From the NCBI RefSeq assembly GCF_002161555.1, contig NZ_NFHZ01000002.1, positions 1 to 64,000 on the forward strand: a stretch of DNA of 64,000 bases. The letters run 5' to 3'. The notes under the pieces are model-generated. The model saw nothing but the letters and a program-made list of their open reading frames with translations. It searched no databases and was not told where the DNA came from. Positions 31,768-59,800 of the stretch are shown here, one piece after another. This DNA is from Barnesiella sp. An55. Lineage in GTDB: Bacteria > Bacteroidota > Bacteroidia > Bacteroidales > Barnesiellaceae. Positions within the stretch are counted from its first letter, which is position 1; the number at the start of each line of letters is the position of its first letter. A program made the position numbers and the translations under genes.

Positions 31768-31840
31768 GGTGCCATAGCTCAGTTGGTAGAGCAAAGGACT
31801 GAAAATCCTTGTGTCACTGGTTCGATTCCCGTTGGCACCA
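31768..31840 (+). tRNA. tRNA-Phe (GAA)
   Basis: A 73-base cloverleaf: acceptor GGTGCCA/TGGCACC with discriminator A, D arm AGCTCAGTTGGTAGAGC, anticodon stem AAGGA/TCCTT with loop CTGAAAA (anticodon GAA), and TpsiC arm TGGTTCGATTCC. CCA is not encoded. It reads UUU and UUC. Confidence 0.97.
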
Positions 31841-33270: not shown

Positions 33271-33322
33271 TGTACAAAGATAGTGAAAGGCGAGTGCAGA
33301 GGCAAATGGGAAACATAGTTTT
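33271..33322 (-). repeat. dispersed promoter-bearing repeat, copy 1
   Basis: About 51 bases beginning TGTACAAAGATAGTGAAAGG resemble 39592-39642 (TGTACAAATATAGTAAAAGG), roughly three quarters identical with one single-base indel. Both copies hold a promoter of identical geometry, each in front of an unrelated gene. Confidence 0.7.
33275..33306 (-). promoter_or_regulatory. purT promoter
   Basis: On the minus strand, TTTG (33303-33306), 20 bases, TATCTTTG (33275-33282). It lies in a roughly 51-bp sequence that recurs upstream of the SIMPL gene (see the repeat at 39592). Confidence 0.8.
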
Positions 33323-33465
33323 CAACATTTGGCTATGCCAAACCAACTCCTATCTTATCCAAAGATAAAAAAAGGTGAGCATAGGGGCAATCGAGATACG
33401 ATTTTCAAGGTCGATTATCTCGAACGACACGTGTTCTCTACAAGCATGGCTCACCCGGGAGTTTA

Positions 33466-53859: not shown

Positions 53860-54984
53860 ATGAAACTTTTCGATGTATATCCGCTTTTCGATATAGAAAT
53901 CGTATCGGGGAAGGGTTGCTATACCTACGACTCGCAAGGCACCGAGTACCTCGACCTCTACGGCGGCCACGCCGTCATCTCCATAGGTCACTCGCATCCC
54001 TACTATGTGAGCCGCATCACCGAGCAGGCCCAGAAGCTCGTCTTCTATTCCAACTCGGTTGTCAACCCCCTGCAACAACAGCTGGCCGACAAGCTGGGCA
54101 GCCTGTCGGGCTATGACGACTACGCCCTCTTCCTCATCAACTCGGGTGCCGAGGCCAACGAAAACGCCTTGAAACTGGCCTCGTTCCACACCGGCAAGAA
54201 GAAGGTCATCGCCTTTGCCCACTCCTTTCACGGCCGCACCTCGGCCGCTGTCAAGGTGACCGACAATCCCCGCATCGTCGCTCCCATCAACGACACCTTC
54301 GAGGTGGCCTTCCTGCCCCTCAACGACATGGAACGGGTAGAGCGCGAGATGGCCGGTGGCGATGTGTGTGCCGTCATCATCGAAGGCATACAGGGCGTGG
54401 GCGGCATACAGATACCCGACCCCCAATTCCTGCGCGACCTGCGCGAAGCCTGCACCCGCCACCACGTTGTACTCATCCTCGACGAAGTGCAATCGGGCTA
54501 CGGCCGCACGGGCAAGTTCTTTGCCCACCAGCACGCCGGCATACGCCCCGACCTCATTACCGTCGCCAAGGGAATGGGCAACGGATTTCCCATCGGTGGA
54601 GTCCTCATCAGTCCCCAGTTCACCCCGGTGTATGGGATGCTGGGCACCACCTTCGGCGGCAACCACCTGGCCTGCACCGCAGCCTGTGCCGTGCTCGACG
54701 TCATGCGCGACGAACACCTCATCGACAATGCGGCCCGCGTGGGGCAATACCTCATCGACCGGCTCAGGGAGATACCCCAAATCAAGGAGGTGCGAGGCAA
54801 AGGACTGATGATCGGGCTCGAGTTTGACCACCCCGTGAAAGAGCTGCGGCAAAAGCTTCTGTTTGAGCAACACGTATTTACCGGGGCCTCGGGCACTCAT
54901 GTCATACGGCTGCTGCCGCCCCTGTCGCTATCGCAAGAACAAGCCGATTGTTTTATCGGTAAACTTAAACATATACTCCCATGA
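53860..54984 (+). CDS. argD: acylornithine aminotransferase
   Basis: 374 residues. A PLP-dependent class III aminotransferase that makes N-acylornithine from the semialdehyde. Characteristic are NSGAEANENALKLA, HSFHGRTSAAVKVT, LILDEVQSGYGRTGKFFAHQ (in parts) and the PLP lysine in TVAKGMGNGFPIGG. The stop overlaps the proC start by four bases (ATGA). Substrate preference between acetyl and succinyl forms is not evident. Confidence 0.94.
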   Translation: MKLFDVYPLFDIEIVSGKGCYTYDSQGTEYLDLYGGHAVISIGHSHPYYVSRITEQAQKLVFYSNSVVNPLQQQLADKLGSLSGYDDYALFLINSGAEANENALKLASFHTGKKKVIAFAHSFHGRTSAAVKVTDNPRIVAPINDTFEVAFLPLNDMERVEREMAGGDVCAVIIEGIQGVGGIQIPDPQFLRDLREACTRHHVVLILDEVQSGYGRTGKFFAHQHAGIRPDLITVAKGMGNGFPIGGVLISPQFTPVYGMLGTTFGGNHLACTAACAVLDVMRDEHLIDNAARVGQYLIDRLREIPQIKEVRGKGLMIGLEFDHPVKELRQKLLFEQHVFTGASGTHVIRLLPPLSLSQEQADCFIGKLKHILP

Positions 54985-55769
54985 AAATAACGATTATAGG
55001 CTGCGGGAATATGGGTGGAGCCATCGCCCGCGGACTGGCAAAAAGCAATTTTGTGGCTCCGGCCGACATCACCGTGAGCAACCGGGGCAAAGAGAAACTC
55101 GATTTACTCAAGACCTACAACCCCGAAGTCCACACCACGACCGACAACAAGGCGGCCGTGAAAGATGCCGACATCATTGTGCTGGCCGTGAAGCCCTGGG
55201 TACTCGAGAGCGTGGCCATCGACATCCGCAACGAGCTCGACCTGCCCCGCCAGATTATTGTATCGATTGTGGCCGGTGTCACCATCGAGCGACTGGCTTC
55301 GCTCTTCACCTCGGGCGACTCCATCCCCGCCATCTTCAGGGCGATGCCCAACACGGCTATTGCCATCCGGCAGAGCATGACCCTCTTCACTCCCTACAAT
55401 GCAGTGCCCGAGCAAGTCGATTGCATCCGGGCCATGCTCGACAGTCTGGGCAAGAGCCTGCTCGTCGATGAGAGCCTCATGGAGGCCGGCACGGCCCTCT
55501 GCTCATGCGGTACCGCCTTTGCCATGCGCTACATGCGCGCGGCGGTCGAAGGCGGCGTAGAGATGGGATTCTACCCCAAGGATGCCCAGTTGGTAGTCGA
55601 ACAGACCGTAAAAGGGGCAGCCGAACTGCTGCTGGCTACCGGCAATCACCCCGAGGTAGAGATAGACCGGGTAACCACCCCTGGCGGAATTACCATCAAA
55701 GGGCTCAACGAAATGGAGGCTGCCGGTTTCTCGACAGCCGTCATCCGAGGGTTGAAAGCCTCGAAATAA
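54981..55769 (+). CDS. proC: pyrroline-5-carboxylate reductase
   Basis: 262 residues. It reduces pyrroline-5-carboxylate to proline with NAD(P)H. The start MKITIIGCGNMGGAIARGL is the dinucleotide-binding motif, and the C-terminal VTTPGGITIKGLNEMEAAGF is the family signature. It is translationally coupled to argD by a four-base overlap, and is the last gene of the cluster. proA and proB are absent from the window. Confidence 0.95.
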   Translation: MKITIIGCGNMGGAIARGLAKSNFVAPADITVSNRGKEKLDLLKTYNPEVHTTTDNKAAVKDADIIVLAVKPWVLESVAIDIRNELDLPRQIIVSIVAGVTIERLASLFTSGDSIPAIFRAMPNTAIAIRQSMTLFTPYNAVPEQVDCIRAMLDSLGKSLLVDESLMEAGTALCSCGTAFAMRYMRAAVEGGVEMGFYPKDAQLVVEQTVKGAAELLLATGNHPEVEIDRVTTPGGITIKGLNEMEAAGFSTAVIRGLKASK

Positions 55770-55808
55770 AAGTCAGAGCCGATTAACGAAACTATTGCTG
55801 GGCAAGGG

Positions 55809-56576
55809 TTACATATCGTAAAACTTGTCCAGCAATTTCTTTTTGTACATCTTGCTCACCTTCAACTCCGACACCTTGTTGAATGGCGGCAACAACGTGC
55901 AGCTGTTCTCCGAAATGAGGTACAGGTAATTGATGTTGATGATATACGCCTTGTGAATCTGGATAAACTCGGGAGCATAATTCAAGATTGTATCGGCCGT
56001 TGTCTGGTGCTTCAGGATGAAATGCTGCAGACTGTTCAGCACCACCTTCCACAACTTGCGTTCCGAGTCGTATTTGAAGAATCCGATATTCTCGGGGCGA
56101 ACGATGAGCTTGTCGTTGGTAATGGTCGTGATCAATATCGATTGGGCCGGCTGCGACACGGGCCTCGGCGGAACCGGCTGGGCCCCCGACCGCAATGCCT
56201 CCTCGCGCGACAGAGAAAAACGGTTCATGATCAACGAAAGTTCACTGTCGCTGACTGGCTTGAGCAGGAAGTCGAACGCCTGTAACCGCAAGGCCGGCAA
56301 CAGATACTTCTCATACGAAGTATAAAACACGACCTTCATATTCCAATCGATGTGCTTGTCGAGCGACGACAGGAACTCCAATCCCGACGTGTCGGACAAC
56401 TCTACATCGAGAAACAGCAACTCGGGTTTGTATTGCATCACCGTGTTCCAGCCCTCCTCGCCATTGCCCGCAGTCGCTACAAGATGCACATCGGGATAGG
56501 CCTTCAGACGCTCGGCCAGTACTCGTATCGACAGATTATCGTCATCGACAATTACCGTGTCAATTCTATTTTCCAT
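55809..56576 (-). CDS. LytTR-family response regulator
   Basis: 255 residues. The receiver domain (1-125) has the acidic pair at 11-13, phospho-acceptor Asp57 (LLFLDVELSD) and Lys of LLKPVSD. The C-terminal LytTR DNA-binding domain (about 150-250) shows KLIVRPENIGFFKYDSERKLW and FIQIHKAYIININYLYLI, in parts. It lies 2 bases after the histidine kinase gene, so the two form one two-component system. Target promoters are unknown. Confidence 0.93.
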   Translation of the reverse strand: MENRIDTVIVDDDNLSIRVLAERLKAYPDVHLVATAGNGEEGWNTVMQYKPELLFLDVELSDTSGLEFLSSLDKHIDWNMKVVFYTSYEKYLLPALRLQAFDFLLKPVSDSELSLIMNRFSLSREEALRSGAQPVPPRPVSQPAQSILITTITNDKLIVRPENIGFFKYDSERKLWKVVLNSLQHFILKHQTTADTILNYAPEFIQIHKAYIININYLYLISENSCTLLPPFNKVSELKVSKMYKKKLLDKFYDM

Positions 56577-56578
56577 GA

Positions 56579-58597
56579 TCAGTCGTTTATATCGAAATTA
56601 TAGACGTCGGGAATAACCAGCAGGGCGCGGCACCCCTCCTCCCCCTCGGGGCTATGATAGCCGTTCAACTCAAACCGCATCTGGTGCTTGTTGCGGGCAT
56701 TGAGCAGTTGTATAATCTGGGCAACCACCCTCAACCCCACCTGCGACTTGTCGCCTCCCCGCTGCACCACGGGCAGCGGACCGTTGTTGAGGACCTCGAT
56801 GCAAATGGCGGCATCGCGATGTTCGACCTGCACGGTCAGGCGTTTTTCGGCATCGAGAGGTTTCTTTTTCAGCCCATGCTTAATGGCATTCTCGACAAAT
56901 ATCTGCACCATCATCGACGGTAACCGCACGGCATCCAGATCGATACCCTCGGCCACCGACACTTTATACTCAAATTTCTCGCCCAGCGATTCCCCTTCGA
57001 CCGCCACGTAGAGGTCGATAAACTTCAGTTCCTCGCGCAGTGTCGTGCAAAACACACTGGCCAACGACTGCCCCTGGCGAAGCATATCGACCAATACGCC
57101 CAACGACGAAGGCCGACCCTCTTGCCGGGCCAAGAGCTCATGGTTGAGAGCATTGTAGATGAAGTGCGGAGTAATGCGGTTGCGCGCATTCTCCATCTTC
57201 ATGGTAACGATGCGACGCAACATCTGTTCCTCACGCTGTTTCACCCGCTTGCGCCGATACACAAACAGGAGGGCCAGCACCAGCACAACAGCCGTCACCC
57301 CAGCCAAGAGGGCATAAATGCGCATCAGCTCGGCCTCCTTGTCGCTGATGACCAGATTCTGGTTCAAGATAGTTGCATCGCGCTCATAACGCATGCGATT
57401 CTCGGCAATTTTCATCCTCACCCGCTCGCTACGCAGAGAGTCGGACAGGGAGGTATAGGCCTGTTCATATTCAAAAGCCTTTTTCCAATCGTGTTTCTCC
57501 TTGGCAAACCGCCGCAGAAAATCGAGCCGCAGCAACCCCTGCTCCGACCGCATGTCATCCCTGTACGGATACTGGGTTGCCAGTTTATCGGCCTGCCCGA
57601 AATCACCATCCTGCAAAGCCAGTTCCATCTGTTGGGTGCGCAGATGCGACATGACCATTTCGTTATATCCGCTCGCCCCGAAATAAGCCAGGTTCTCGGC
57701 AATGAGCGGTCGAGCCTGCTCGGGCTGATGAAGTTTCAGATAAATATCCGACAGATTGGCCTTGCAGAAATGGGCCTCCCACTCCATATCGGGATGCGTT
57801 TGCAAGAAAGTATCGAGACGCAGGAAGATGTCCAACGCCTGCCGATAGTCCTTCTGGTAGAAATAATCATTCCCCCGACTATTCAAATAGTTGAACTGGT
57901 CATAGACGGTCATCATATTCCACAACCGCTCGCACTTGTCCCACCAGATCTTGCTTTGCCCAAAATCGCGAAGGGTCGTATAGGTAGCCGCCAAGCCGCT
58001 ATACAAGGGTATATAGTTCGCCGTATCGGTCTGTATGGAATCGGCCAAAGCGATAGCCTGCCGGTAGGTCATCGCACTCATGGCCAAATCGCCTCCAAAC
58101 TTATAGGCGTCGGCCAAATTGGCATAACTCAACAAACGATCGTTCTCGTCGCCCCCCATATCGGCATACCGGCACGCCTCTTTCTGATAAAAAAGCATCG
58201 AGTCGGCATCAAAGGCATATTGGGTATAATAGAGGCCCTTGGCCTGCATACACTTTATCATCAAATCGTTACGCAGTTTAGAATAGGGTTTCCCCGACAA
58301 GTAGTGTACTACGCTGTCGGCACTGAGCAGAACCGAATCGAGTTGTGCCGTATAGAAATAGCGTATGATGTCCTGCACGACAAAGTTATAATACTCGTCA
58401 CTGTCGCGAGCATTGCTCTTCCCCTGGCTTATCGCTTTCTTGATAAAAGCCATGTTGTGCGTACGAAACGAATCGGCTATCTCTTGATTGATGGCATCGA
58501 GCGAAGTCGCCTCGGATTTCCGGGACGTACAACCGCTTCCTATCAAAACCAGACACAAGAGTAAGGCAACCAAGCGCCACAACTTCACTATTTTCAT
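56579..58597 (-). CDS. TPR-containing sensor histidine kinase (LytS/His_kinase type)
   Basis: 672 residues. The N-terminal signal ends near GSGC and could be a lipoprotein or type I signal. Residues about 60-400 are TPR-like repeats facing the periplasm; one membrane helix at about 425-445 (IYALLAGVTAVVLVLALLFVY, in parts) precedes the cytoplasmic kinase. The phospho-acceptor His is in NRITPHFIYNALNHELL. The N box FVENAIKHGLKKK is clear, but the G1 box reads LNNGPLP where DNG is the textbook form, and G2 is QVGLRVV. The ligand is unknown. Paired with the LytTR regulator downstream. Confidence 0.9.
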   Translation of the reverse strand: MKIVKLWRLVALLLCLVLIGSGCTSRKSEATSLDAINQEIADSFRTHNMAFIKKAISQGKSNARDSDEYYNFVVQDIIRYFYTAQLDSVLLSADSVVHYLSGKPYSKLRNDLMIKCMQAKGLYYTQYAFDADSMLFYQKEACRYADMGGDENDRLLSYANLADAYKFGGDLAMSAMTYRQAIALADSIQTDTANYIPLYSGLAATYTTLRDFGQSKIWWDKCERLWNMMTVYDQFNYLNSRGNDYFYQKDYRQALDIFLRLDTFLQTHPDMEWEAHFCKANLSDIYLKLHQPEQARPLIAENLAYFGASGYNEMVMSHLRTQQMELALQDGDFGQADKLATQYPYRDDMRSEQGLLRLDFLRRFAKEKHDWKKAFEYEQAYTSLSDSLRSERVRMKIAENRMRYERDATILNQNLVISDKEAELMRIYALLAGVTAVVLVLALLFVYRRKRVKQREEQMLRRIVTMKMENARNRITPHFIYNALNHELLARQEGRPSSLGVLVDMLRQGQSLASVFCTTLREELKFIDLYVAVEGESLGEKFEYKVSVAEGIDLDAVRLPSMMVQIFVENAIKHGLKKKPLDAEKRLTVQVEHRDAAICIEVLNNGPLPVVQRGGDKSQVGLRVVAQIIQLLNARNKHQMRFELNGYHSPEGEEGCRALLVIPDVYNFDIND

Positions 58598-58876
58598 GGA
58601 TCAAAACTTATTCTATACAGCGACAATCAAGGCTCATACAGGAAGGAATCATGGCGAACTACGCCTTGCTTGAACGCGACTCTACACCCACCCTCTGCAA
58701 TCGAGAATCGAGAGAGTCCCTACTTATGATACCGAGCATCATCTGTTCTACGGGGAACAAATGTACGACTTTTTTTGGCTCATTCATTACTTTATAAAAA
58801 CAAACCTGTCAATCTCTATTTTTTACCGCTTATCCATCGTGCCGACCTGTTATCCCAAAAACATCGAATCCTGCGG

Positions 58877-58907
58877 TTGCCGAATTGTTTTTATCGTTCT
58901 ATCTTTG
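58877..58907 (+). promoter_or_regulatory. promoter for the candidate sRNA
   Basis: GTTG (TTG at 58877-58879), 20 bases, TATCTTTG (58900-58907), reading rightward into a region without genes. Confidence 0.55.
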
Positions 58908-58913
58908 AATAAA

Positions 58914-59208
58914 TTTCAATATTATTTTATATAAAAGAAAATTTTAGAAAGGGGACGTAAGAGCAAGGATGTGATCAGCAAAATATTGTGCGCGGTGCAC
59001 AATAGACAAATATAACGACACACCGAAAAAGAAATGAGAAATTTATCCCGAGCCTCAACAGCAAGGGAGGGGCAAAAAAAGATTTGTACCCACATCAGGC
59101 GGAGAGGATCTCCACCCTACAACCAAAGCCGTTTCACCGTCAAAAAAAAACGGCACATCCTTGTCTTCTTACATGTGGACTTCCTCTTAAAGAGGAAGTC
59201 CTTTTTTT
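58914..59208 (+). ncRNA. candidate small RNA between histidine kinase and ssb
   Basis: A rightward promoter at 58877-58907 and a strong rightward terminator at 59177-59208 bracket about 295 bases with no convincing reading frame. The two flanking genes diverge, so neither explains this terminator. Inside are the palindrome at 58985-59003, GCCGTTT/AAACGGC arms near 59126-59154 and GGAGaggatCTCC near 59101. The 5' end is set from the -7 box and is approximate. No known RNA family was recognised. Confidence 0.45.
59177..59208 (+). terminator. rho-independent terminator (orphan)
   Basis: GGACTTCCTCT pairs with AGAGGAAGTCC around a short loop and is followed by seven Ts on the plus strand; the minus strand has no T-run. 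It ends the candidate sRNA. Confidence 0.88.
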
Positions 59209-59237
59209 ATCATCACCCTGTGAAAACCAGGCTTCCA

Positions 59238-59269
59238 TTTGCTTCGACTCTCTTTTTTATCTATCTTTG
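59238..59269 (+). promoter_or_regulatory. ssb promoter
   Basis: TTTG (59238-59241), 20 bases, TATCTTTG (59262-59269), 78 bases before the ssb start. Same spacing as the purT and SIMPL promoters. Confidence 0.8.
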
Positions 59270-59347
59270 TAAAAGATAGGGATACAGTTTCTCAGGCAGA
59301 GCCCGATTCTGGAATTACGATTGTATAATCAACAACTTAAACACACC

Positions 59348-59800
59348 ATGTCTGTAAACAAAGTCATTTTGATAGGAAACGTGGGCAAAGACCCCGATGT
59401 GAGATATCTCGAAAACAACGTGTGCGTAGCCAACTTCACCCTGGCTACCACCGAGCGCGGCTACACCACGCAAAGCGGTGTACAGATTCCCGACAAGACC
59501 GAGTGGCACAACATTGTCGCCTGGCGAGGCCTGGCCGAAATTGCCGAAAAATATGTGCGCAAAGGCACCCAACTCTACATCGAGGGGAAAATCCGCACCC
59601 GCTCGTGGGAAGACCAGAACAAGATTCGCCGCTACACGACCGAGATCTATGTCGATAACATGGAACTGCTGGGCCGTCGCGACGCCCCACAGGCTGCTGC
59701 ACCGACTCAGGCCCAACCCCAAAGCTACCAGGCACCGTCCAATCCGGCAGGATTTGCACCCACAGGCGGAAATAGTAGCGACGACGATTTGCCGTTCTGA
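59348..59800 (+). CDS. ssb: single-stranded DNA-binding protein
   Basis: 150 residues. The OB fold opens MSVNKVILIGNVGKDPDVRY, with WHNIVAWRGLAEIAEKYV and YIEGKIRTRSW. A Gln/Ala/Pro-rich linker leads to the acidic tip SSDDDLPF that recruits repair and replication proteins. ATG 59348 gives the family N-terminus. It is followed by gldE after 126 bases with a hairpin between, the usual Bacteroidota order ssb-gldE-gldD. Confidence 0.97.
   Translation: MSVNKVILIGNVGKDPDVRYLENNVCVANFTLATTERGYTTQSGVQIPDKTEWHNIVAWRGLAEIAEKYVRKGTQLYIEGKIRTRSWEDQNKIRRYTTEIYVDNMELLGRRDAPQAAAPTQAQPQSYQAPSNPAGFAPTGGNSSDDDLPF

Follow-up and report, generated by a model that had tools for sequence, protein, structure and literature searches.

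What occupies the interval between a two-component system and ssb in Barnesiella sp. An55, and does it belong to that system? We analysed a 64,000-nucleotide stretch (the window) of a 3.03-Mb genome in 49 contigs (G000), in which the neighbours of this interval are divergent, with a sensor histidine kinase gene on the minus strand and ssb on the plus strand. An initial annotation, made from the letters, had proposed that a consensus-like promoter and a strong terminator enclose a gene-free unit here, that this unit is a candidate for an undescribed small RNA, and that a palindrome in its 5′ part could bind the adjacent LytTR regulator. It had named conservation beside the kinase genes and an Rfam search among the suitable checks. 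Both checks, and both proposed boundaries, came out in favour of the RNA, and the palindrome did not keep the role given to it.

The promoter at 58877-58907 (plus strand) consists of TTG at 58877-58879, N20 and TATCTTTG at 58900-58907. It is of the Bacteroidota type, which has TAnnTTTG at -7 and TTTG near -33 as described in the part of PMC7366714 available to us. Matches to TTG-N20-TANNTTTG number seven in the 64-kb window versus 0.5 expected from shuffled sequence, the RNA promoter being one of them, and TTG and TA[TC]CTTTG are kept in all five genomes that carry the unit. An E. coli-type sigma-70 scan did not list this promoter, as expected for Bacteroidota. At the other end, an intrinsic terminator at 59177-59208 (plus strand) comprises an 11-bp stem (59177-59201) followed by seven T. 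The predicted small RNA gene would thus span 58913-59208 on the plus strand, about 295 nt, with its start placed from the promoter position. The unit contains no plausible gene, as judged from the list of open reading frames and from a comparison of five homologous RNAs, among which no shared-start frame is kept; the longest listed frame starting inside it (59034-59279, 81 aa) reads through the terminator.

A similar promoter motif also occurs in a repeated element of about 77-85 bp, in which a TANNTTTG promoter is followed by (R)AGGANNNGGYTYGGCATA and which stands in tandem before ssb in some relatives. The copy in the window (33275-33390, minus strand) has three mismatches to the pattern, and others lie at L069:3120-3330, L070:3160-3370 and L228:341-441 and in G005; the element is possibly a dispersed promoter-bearing repeat of the genus.

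Because it lies on the strand of ssb and directly upstream of that gene, the unit could be read as an ssb leader or attenuator rather than a separate RNA. However, ssb has a separate promoter-pattern match of its own at 59239-59269 (plus strand), downstream of the RNA terminator, and is kept without the unit in three relatives (L069, L071 and L073). We regard the leader reading as highly improbable and treat the unit as a separate RNA.

Searched with Rfam at the gathering threshold, the whole window yielded a single match, a tRNA at 31768-31840, and nothing in the unit. A relaxed threshold (58600-59350) gave four minus-strand matches, each far below its gathering score. The size of the RNA and its end-to-end helix are loosely 6S-like, and one might therefore suspect a housekeeping RNA (6S, tmRNA, RNase P or SRP RNA) that has diverged too far for Rfam. 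Against this, the RNA's own strand remains free of matches even at the relaxed threshold, and the RNA was not found in four of nine Barnesiella genomes, which are 94-99% complete. Since a housekeeping RNA should not be missing in sister species, we give this reading next to no weight. The specific identification as 6S was dropped because RF01693 (Bacteroidales-1), which we take to be the group's 6S RNA, is located elsewhere: the window's genome has a strong match on contig C34, and all nine genus genomes have one copy each. The part of PMC2864571 available to us does not state that RF01693 is 6S RNA. The unit itself has no match to the RF01693 covariance model; RF01685 also gave no match, as did its controls. 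The Bacteroidales-1 copy of the window's genome lies at G000:C34:145011-145191 (L154).

Folding of the window's RNA gave z = -5.8 with the terminator included, beating all 200 shuffles, and about -3.2 after removal of the last 40 nt. Across the five RNAs, the corresponding values range from -4.2 to -6.8 and from -2.8 to -4.5. Given these five RNAs and no structural prompt, RNAalifold returned a 16-pair closing helix (5′ arm 58957-58972, 3′ arm 59155-59172, plus strand), the terminator and two small inner helices. Fifteen of the 35 pairs in this structure show changes on both sides, including 7 of 16 in the closing helix, and the RNAalifold covariation term is slightly unfavourable (+1.12 kcal/mol). 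Covariation was counted over the 27 pairs of the closing helix and terminator, the two inner helices (8 pairs) having been dropped beforehand, and the counted structure derives from the very alignment of five related species on which the counting was done. Changes on both sides affect 11 of these 27 pairs (4 of 11 in the terminator), compared with 5.5 ± 1.6 after shuffling (0/500 as high). Pairing is possible in 85.9% of 135 cells (27 pairs in five RNAs) versus 79.4% in shuffles, and the covariation score is 0.378 versus 0.246 (0/500 as high). One measure of five, the number of further pair types, does not beat the shuffles (18 versus 16.8; 138/500 as high). Sliding the partner strand by 1-3 columns lowers pairing to 42-56%. 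When the RNAs are folded singly, the core of the closing helix is near certain in four of the five, and rival folds compete in G001. Overall, the sequence evidence makes the orphan unit very probably a real structured small RNA gene, in line with its initial description as an undescribed candidate.

Just outside the closing helix, the motif AGGGGA (58950-58955, plus strand) is invariant, with all six columns identical in the five genomes. Mean identity falls from 1.0 in this motif to 0.37 in the middle of the RNA, where species-specific hairpins occur. AGGGGA was considered as a seed and dropped: the mean unpaired values of AGGGGAY in the five RNAs are 0.73, 0.37, 0.79, 0.37 and 0.27, and because the motif is not consistently unpaired, no seed is named. 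Its conservation lacks a clear structural reason. The palindrome TATTGTGC-gcggt-GCACAATA exists much as first described (58984-59004, plus strand) and forms one of the hairpins of the variable middle. It is not conserved, however; of the five RNAs, the window's alone has both arms. A LytTR site at 58985-59003, as initially suggested, would lie inside the transcript, and the absence of the palindrome from the four related RNAs leaves such a site unsupported.

The transcript might also encode a small peptide, as RNAIII does, and so be mainly an mRNA. Short frames do occur in single species, and three of the five RNAs (G000, G001 and G005) share an open frame that crosses the 3′ helix arm, enters the terminator and, within the last ~50 nt, ends in a similar tail (WTSS or WTSF) before the stop. 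Yet this frame has no shared start, the window offering TTG or ATG only within its last ten codons; it is broken in G003 and continues past the end in G007, and its similarity between species coincides with the conserved RNA helices. Among closed frames, the window's RNA has a single one of 10 aa or more, a GTG frame of 14 aa. The 3′ open frame is probably a by-product of the conserved helices, and we consider a messenger role for the RNA very unlikely.

The divergent two-component genes are predicted to form one operon, in which a sensor histidine kinase (PF06580; 56579-58597, minus strand) precedes a response regulator with receiver and LytTR domains (55809-56576, minus strand). Pfam scores are 36.6 bits for His_kinase, 66 bits for Response_reg and 23.1 bits for LytTR, the last barely above its cut-off of 22.6; the Response_reg and LytTR domains were found in all three regulator orthologues scanned. 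Between the window and G007, the LytTR part of the regulator is 93% identical and the receiver 74%, and between the window and G001 both parts are 96% identical. The N-terminal part of the kinase is TPR-like, with four TPR models matching below their curated cut-offs. Structure prediction for the regulator from three sequences reached a mean pLDDT of 36, and none of the best 60 of 94 matches to solved structures extended to the LytTR part.

Within the genus, the RNA and the kinase occur together. Five of nine Barnesiella genomes (G000, G001, G003, G005 and G007) contain the kinase (E ≤ 1e-25), and in each of these carriers the unit lies divergent to it with promoter, AGGGGAY, both helix arms and terminator. 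An exact pattern of the RNA core is found once in every carrier, beside the kinase, and in none of the other four genomes. Three of the relatives without kinase and RNA (L069, L071 and L073) have proC directly before ssb, as do two Coprobacter records that likewise lack both; for G002, G006 and G008, absence of kinase and RNA rests on searches. The proC-ssb junction (window 54981-59800) is thus a presence/absence site for the kinase-LytTR-RNA segment among Barnesiella. Because the RNA adjoins the kinase and one deletion would take both, the co-occurrence (5/5 versus 0/4) is weaker evidence of a functional link than it would be for distant genes.

Searches beyond the carriers were made with R1, a covariance model built from the five RNAs. 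R1 scores 198-223 bits on these five, as expected for its own training set, and in no other genome does it exceed 29.7 bits. It was run with strict filters on 393 genomes of the order, three carriers included, and on six further genus genomes (the two other carriers and four non-carriers). No convincing copy outside the five carriers appeared among the 393 genomes under these filters, and matches of any kind at E ≤ 1 were seen in 105 of them. The two strongest weak hits in other families look like chance: L182 covers the unstructured middle only, and L181 was not recovered at E ≤ 1 and has no adjoining response-regulator gene in its list of open reading frames, read by eye. With two mismatches allowed, the RNA core pattern gave five matches in the genus and its reversed control four; the two that were read, L171 and L173, also look like chance. 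DNA similarity to the unit at E ≤ 0.001 extended within the genus, beyond the unit itself, to G001 and G003 and missed G005 and G007, both of which were found by pattern and model, and in other families it produced matches of at most 47 bases (best 1.9e-4). Kinase homologues outside the genus were found in 6 of 295 genomes (E ≤ 1e-30, at most four candidates scored per genome), with 25-32% identity. Five of these six have no TT[TG]-N17-22-TANNTTTG match in 1,560 divergent-side bases, and in L164, which has two, the 900 bases read revealed no unit closed by a terminator.

The gldE sequences of L068-L071 and L073 are 86-96% identical to that of the window, and in a tree of ten gldE sequences carriers and non-carriers interleave. 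The sister of carrier G001 is non-carrier L073 (support 100), and that of carrier G005 is non-carrier L071 (support 90, or 95 with a longer stretch); non-carrier L069 stands apart, and placement of the outgroup is poorly supported (38 and 69). By a parsimony count, kinase and RNA must have changed together three or more times within the genus, and neither was seen without the other. Each gain or loss of kinase and RNA could have been a single deletion or insertion.

Where might the LytTR regulator bind, if not at the palindrome? Three 11-bp direct repeats lie between the divergent promoters and are gapless in all five genomes: repeat 1 (ACCTGTCAATC, 58804-58814), the weakest of the three, repeat 2 (ACCGCTTATCC, 58825-58835) and repeat 3 (ACCTGTTATCC, 58845-58855), all given on the plus strand. 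On the kinase side, the likely -7 element of the promoter is at 58758-58765 on the minus strand (CAAATGTA on plus, TACATTTG on minus), and CAAANGTA is kept at this position in all five genomes; a clear -33 element is absent at standard spacing. Self-similarity at lag 20, which aligns repeats 2 and 3, is 38/45, the highest of lags 10-69, and this score was never reached at lags 19-23 in 500 joint-column shuffles, which do not keep dinucleotides. Repeat 1 is weak by the same measure: lag 21 gives 27/45, tying with unrelated lags, and lag 41 gives 32, equalled by lag 60. Mean identity among the five related species is 0.84-0.86 for repeat 2 with its preceding spacer and 0.74-0.75 for repeats 1 and 3, compared with 0.47-0.61 for the surroundings. 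A search pattern derived from repeats 2 and 3 of these loci, applied at one spacing only, occurs exactly once in each of the five carriers and in none of four non-carriers. Allowing one mismatch adds no site in the window's genome, where the reversed control has five, and one to five sites in the other carriers.

The repeat core matches what we take to be the LytTR consensus in its GTTA part only. The arrangement of the repeats is LytTR-like. The centre of repeat 3 lies about 63 bp upstream of the predicted RNA start, that of repeat 1 about 57 bp upstream of the predicted start of the kinase operon. For LytTR direct repeats, PMC6193735 gives a separation of 12 bp in most cases and of 11 or 13 in a minority, and PMC4227749 places the centres of the AgrA repeats at about -60 of both divergent agr promoters. 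In our judgement, the repeats at 58804-58855 are probably the site of the LytTR regulator, in place of the palindrome; they may instead be bound by a regulator other than the LytTR one.

The same region bears on a different account of the locus, in which the RNA is real and structured but constitutive, lies outside the control of the neighbouring system, and merely shares the proC-ssb segment with it. The RNA promoter is near consensus by itself and so may not need an activator, and the kinase and RNA genes could come or go as one segment. Such independence leaves unaccounted for a well-conserved repeat-bearing stretch with LytTR-like spacing near -60 of both predicted starts, and an exact repeat pattern found at no other place in the five genomes. 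We judge a constitutive, independent RNA unlikely, though worth keeping in mind, and prefer regulation by the neighbouring system.

Our main reading, to which we assign a probability of roughly 60%, is that the LytTR two-component system controls its own operon together with a dedicated divergent small RNA. The kinase would sense a signal and phosphorylate the LytTR regulator, which in turn would bind the direct repeats between the divergent promoters. Bound regulator would then activate both its own operon, as feedback, and transcription of the RNA. This RNA of ~295 nt, with its long end-to-end helix and intrinsic terminator, would constitute the regulatory output of the system, most likely through base-pairing with mRNAs in trans. 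By analogy with known small RNAs, we lean slightly towards this pairing mode. A bolder proposal, which we put forward tentatively and think rather doubtful, is a self-contained Bacteroidota cassette in which the LytTR system has one genomic DNA target region, lying between itself and one small RNA, and acts through that RNA alone. Such a cassette would be a counterpart of agr-RNAIII that evolved independently, would contain a new RNA family and would be gained or lost in one piece among Barnesiella species.

LytTR systems that act through RNA are known from Gram-positive bacteria. Our literature search found no description of a LytTR-to-small-RNA circuit in Bacteroidota, and a search of titles found none of a Barnesiella small RNA. 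If the main reading is true, gut commensals would have arrived convergently at a LytTR switch whose output is an RNA, and that RNA would define a new family. The TPR-type LytS-like kinase of this group would also gain an assayable output, within a compact locus that offers a regulator site, an RNA and sister species lacking the locus.

How does this arrangement compare with known systems? High-confidence intergenic small RNAs of B. thetaiotaomicron such as GibS have a start site and a Rho-independent terminator, mostly with a canonical promoter (PMC7366714, in part). The Barnesiella RNA shares the promoter and terminator, its start being predicted; for the GibS-type RNAs, the part of PMC7366714 available to us describes no LytTR link, the term LytTR occurring zero times there. 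LytTR Regulatory Systems (LRS) resemble the locus in their autoregulatory direct repeats beside the operon promoter, mostly with 12-bp spacers, but in them the partner of the LytTR regulator is an inhibitory membrane protein, in place of the histidine kinase and receiver domain found here (PMC6193735, in part). The FasBCA-FasX system of group A streptococcus is similar in that an AgrA-like regulator activates a small RNA acting on an mRNA, and dissimilar in having two kinase genes, FasB and FasC, where the Barnesiella locus has one (PMC3673130, in part). The RNA described here is divergent to its operon and has no Rfam match. FasX, by contrast, follows its operon in the same direction.

The agr P2/P3-RNAIII locus of S. 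aureus sends a LytTR operon and an RNA divergently from one intergenic region and has direct repeats near -60 of both promoters (PMC4227749, in part). The Barnesiella locus has a similar layout, in which divergent transcription of the RNA, the starts from which these distances are taken, and binding to the repeats are predicted. As in the agr-RNAIII layout, Pfam identifies a LytTR regulator and a histidine kinase, adjacent here on the minus strand. Unlike agr, the Barnesiella RNA has neither an Rfam match nor a shared-start peptide frame, no agrB- or agrD-like gene was seen by eye in the list of open reading frames around the locus, the kinase has a TPR-like part, and a single array of three repeats lies between the promoters. 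The locus is a member of none of agr proper, FasBCA-FasX, RF01693 and LRS, and we file it under neither agr nor Fas because there is no RNA match, agrB and agrD were not recognised and the kinase is of another kind. We think it fairly probable that the Barnesiella RNA locus works in the manner of agr-RNAIII and FasBCA-FasX while standing outside both.
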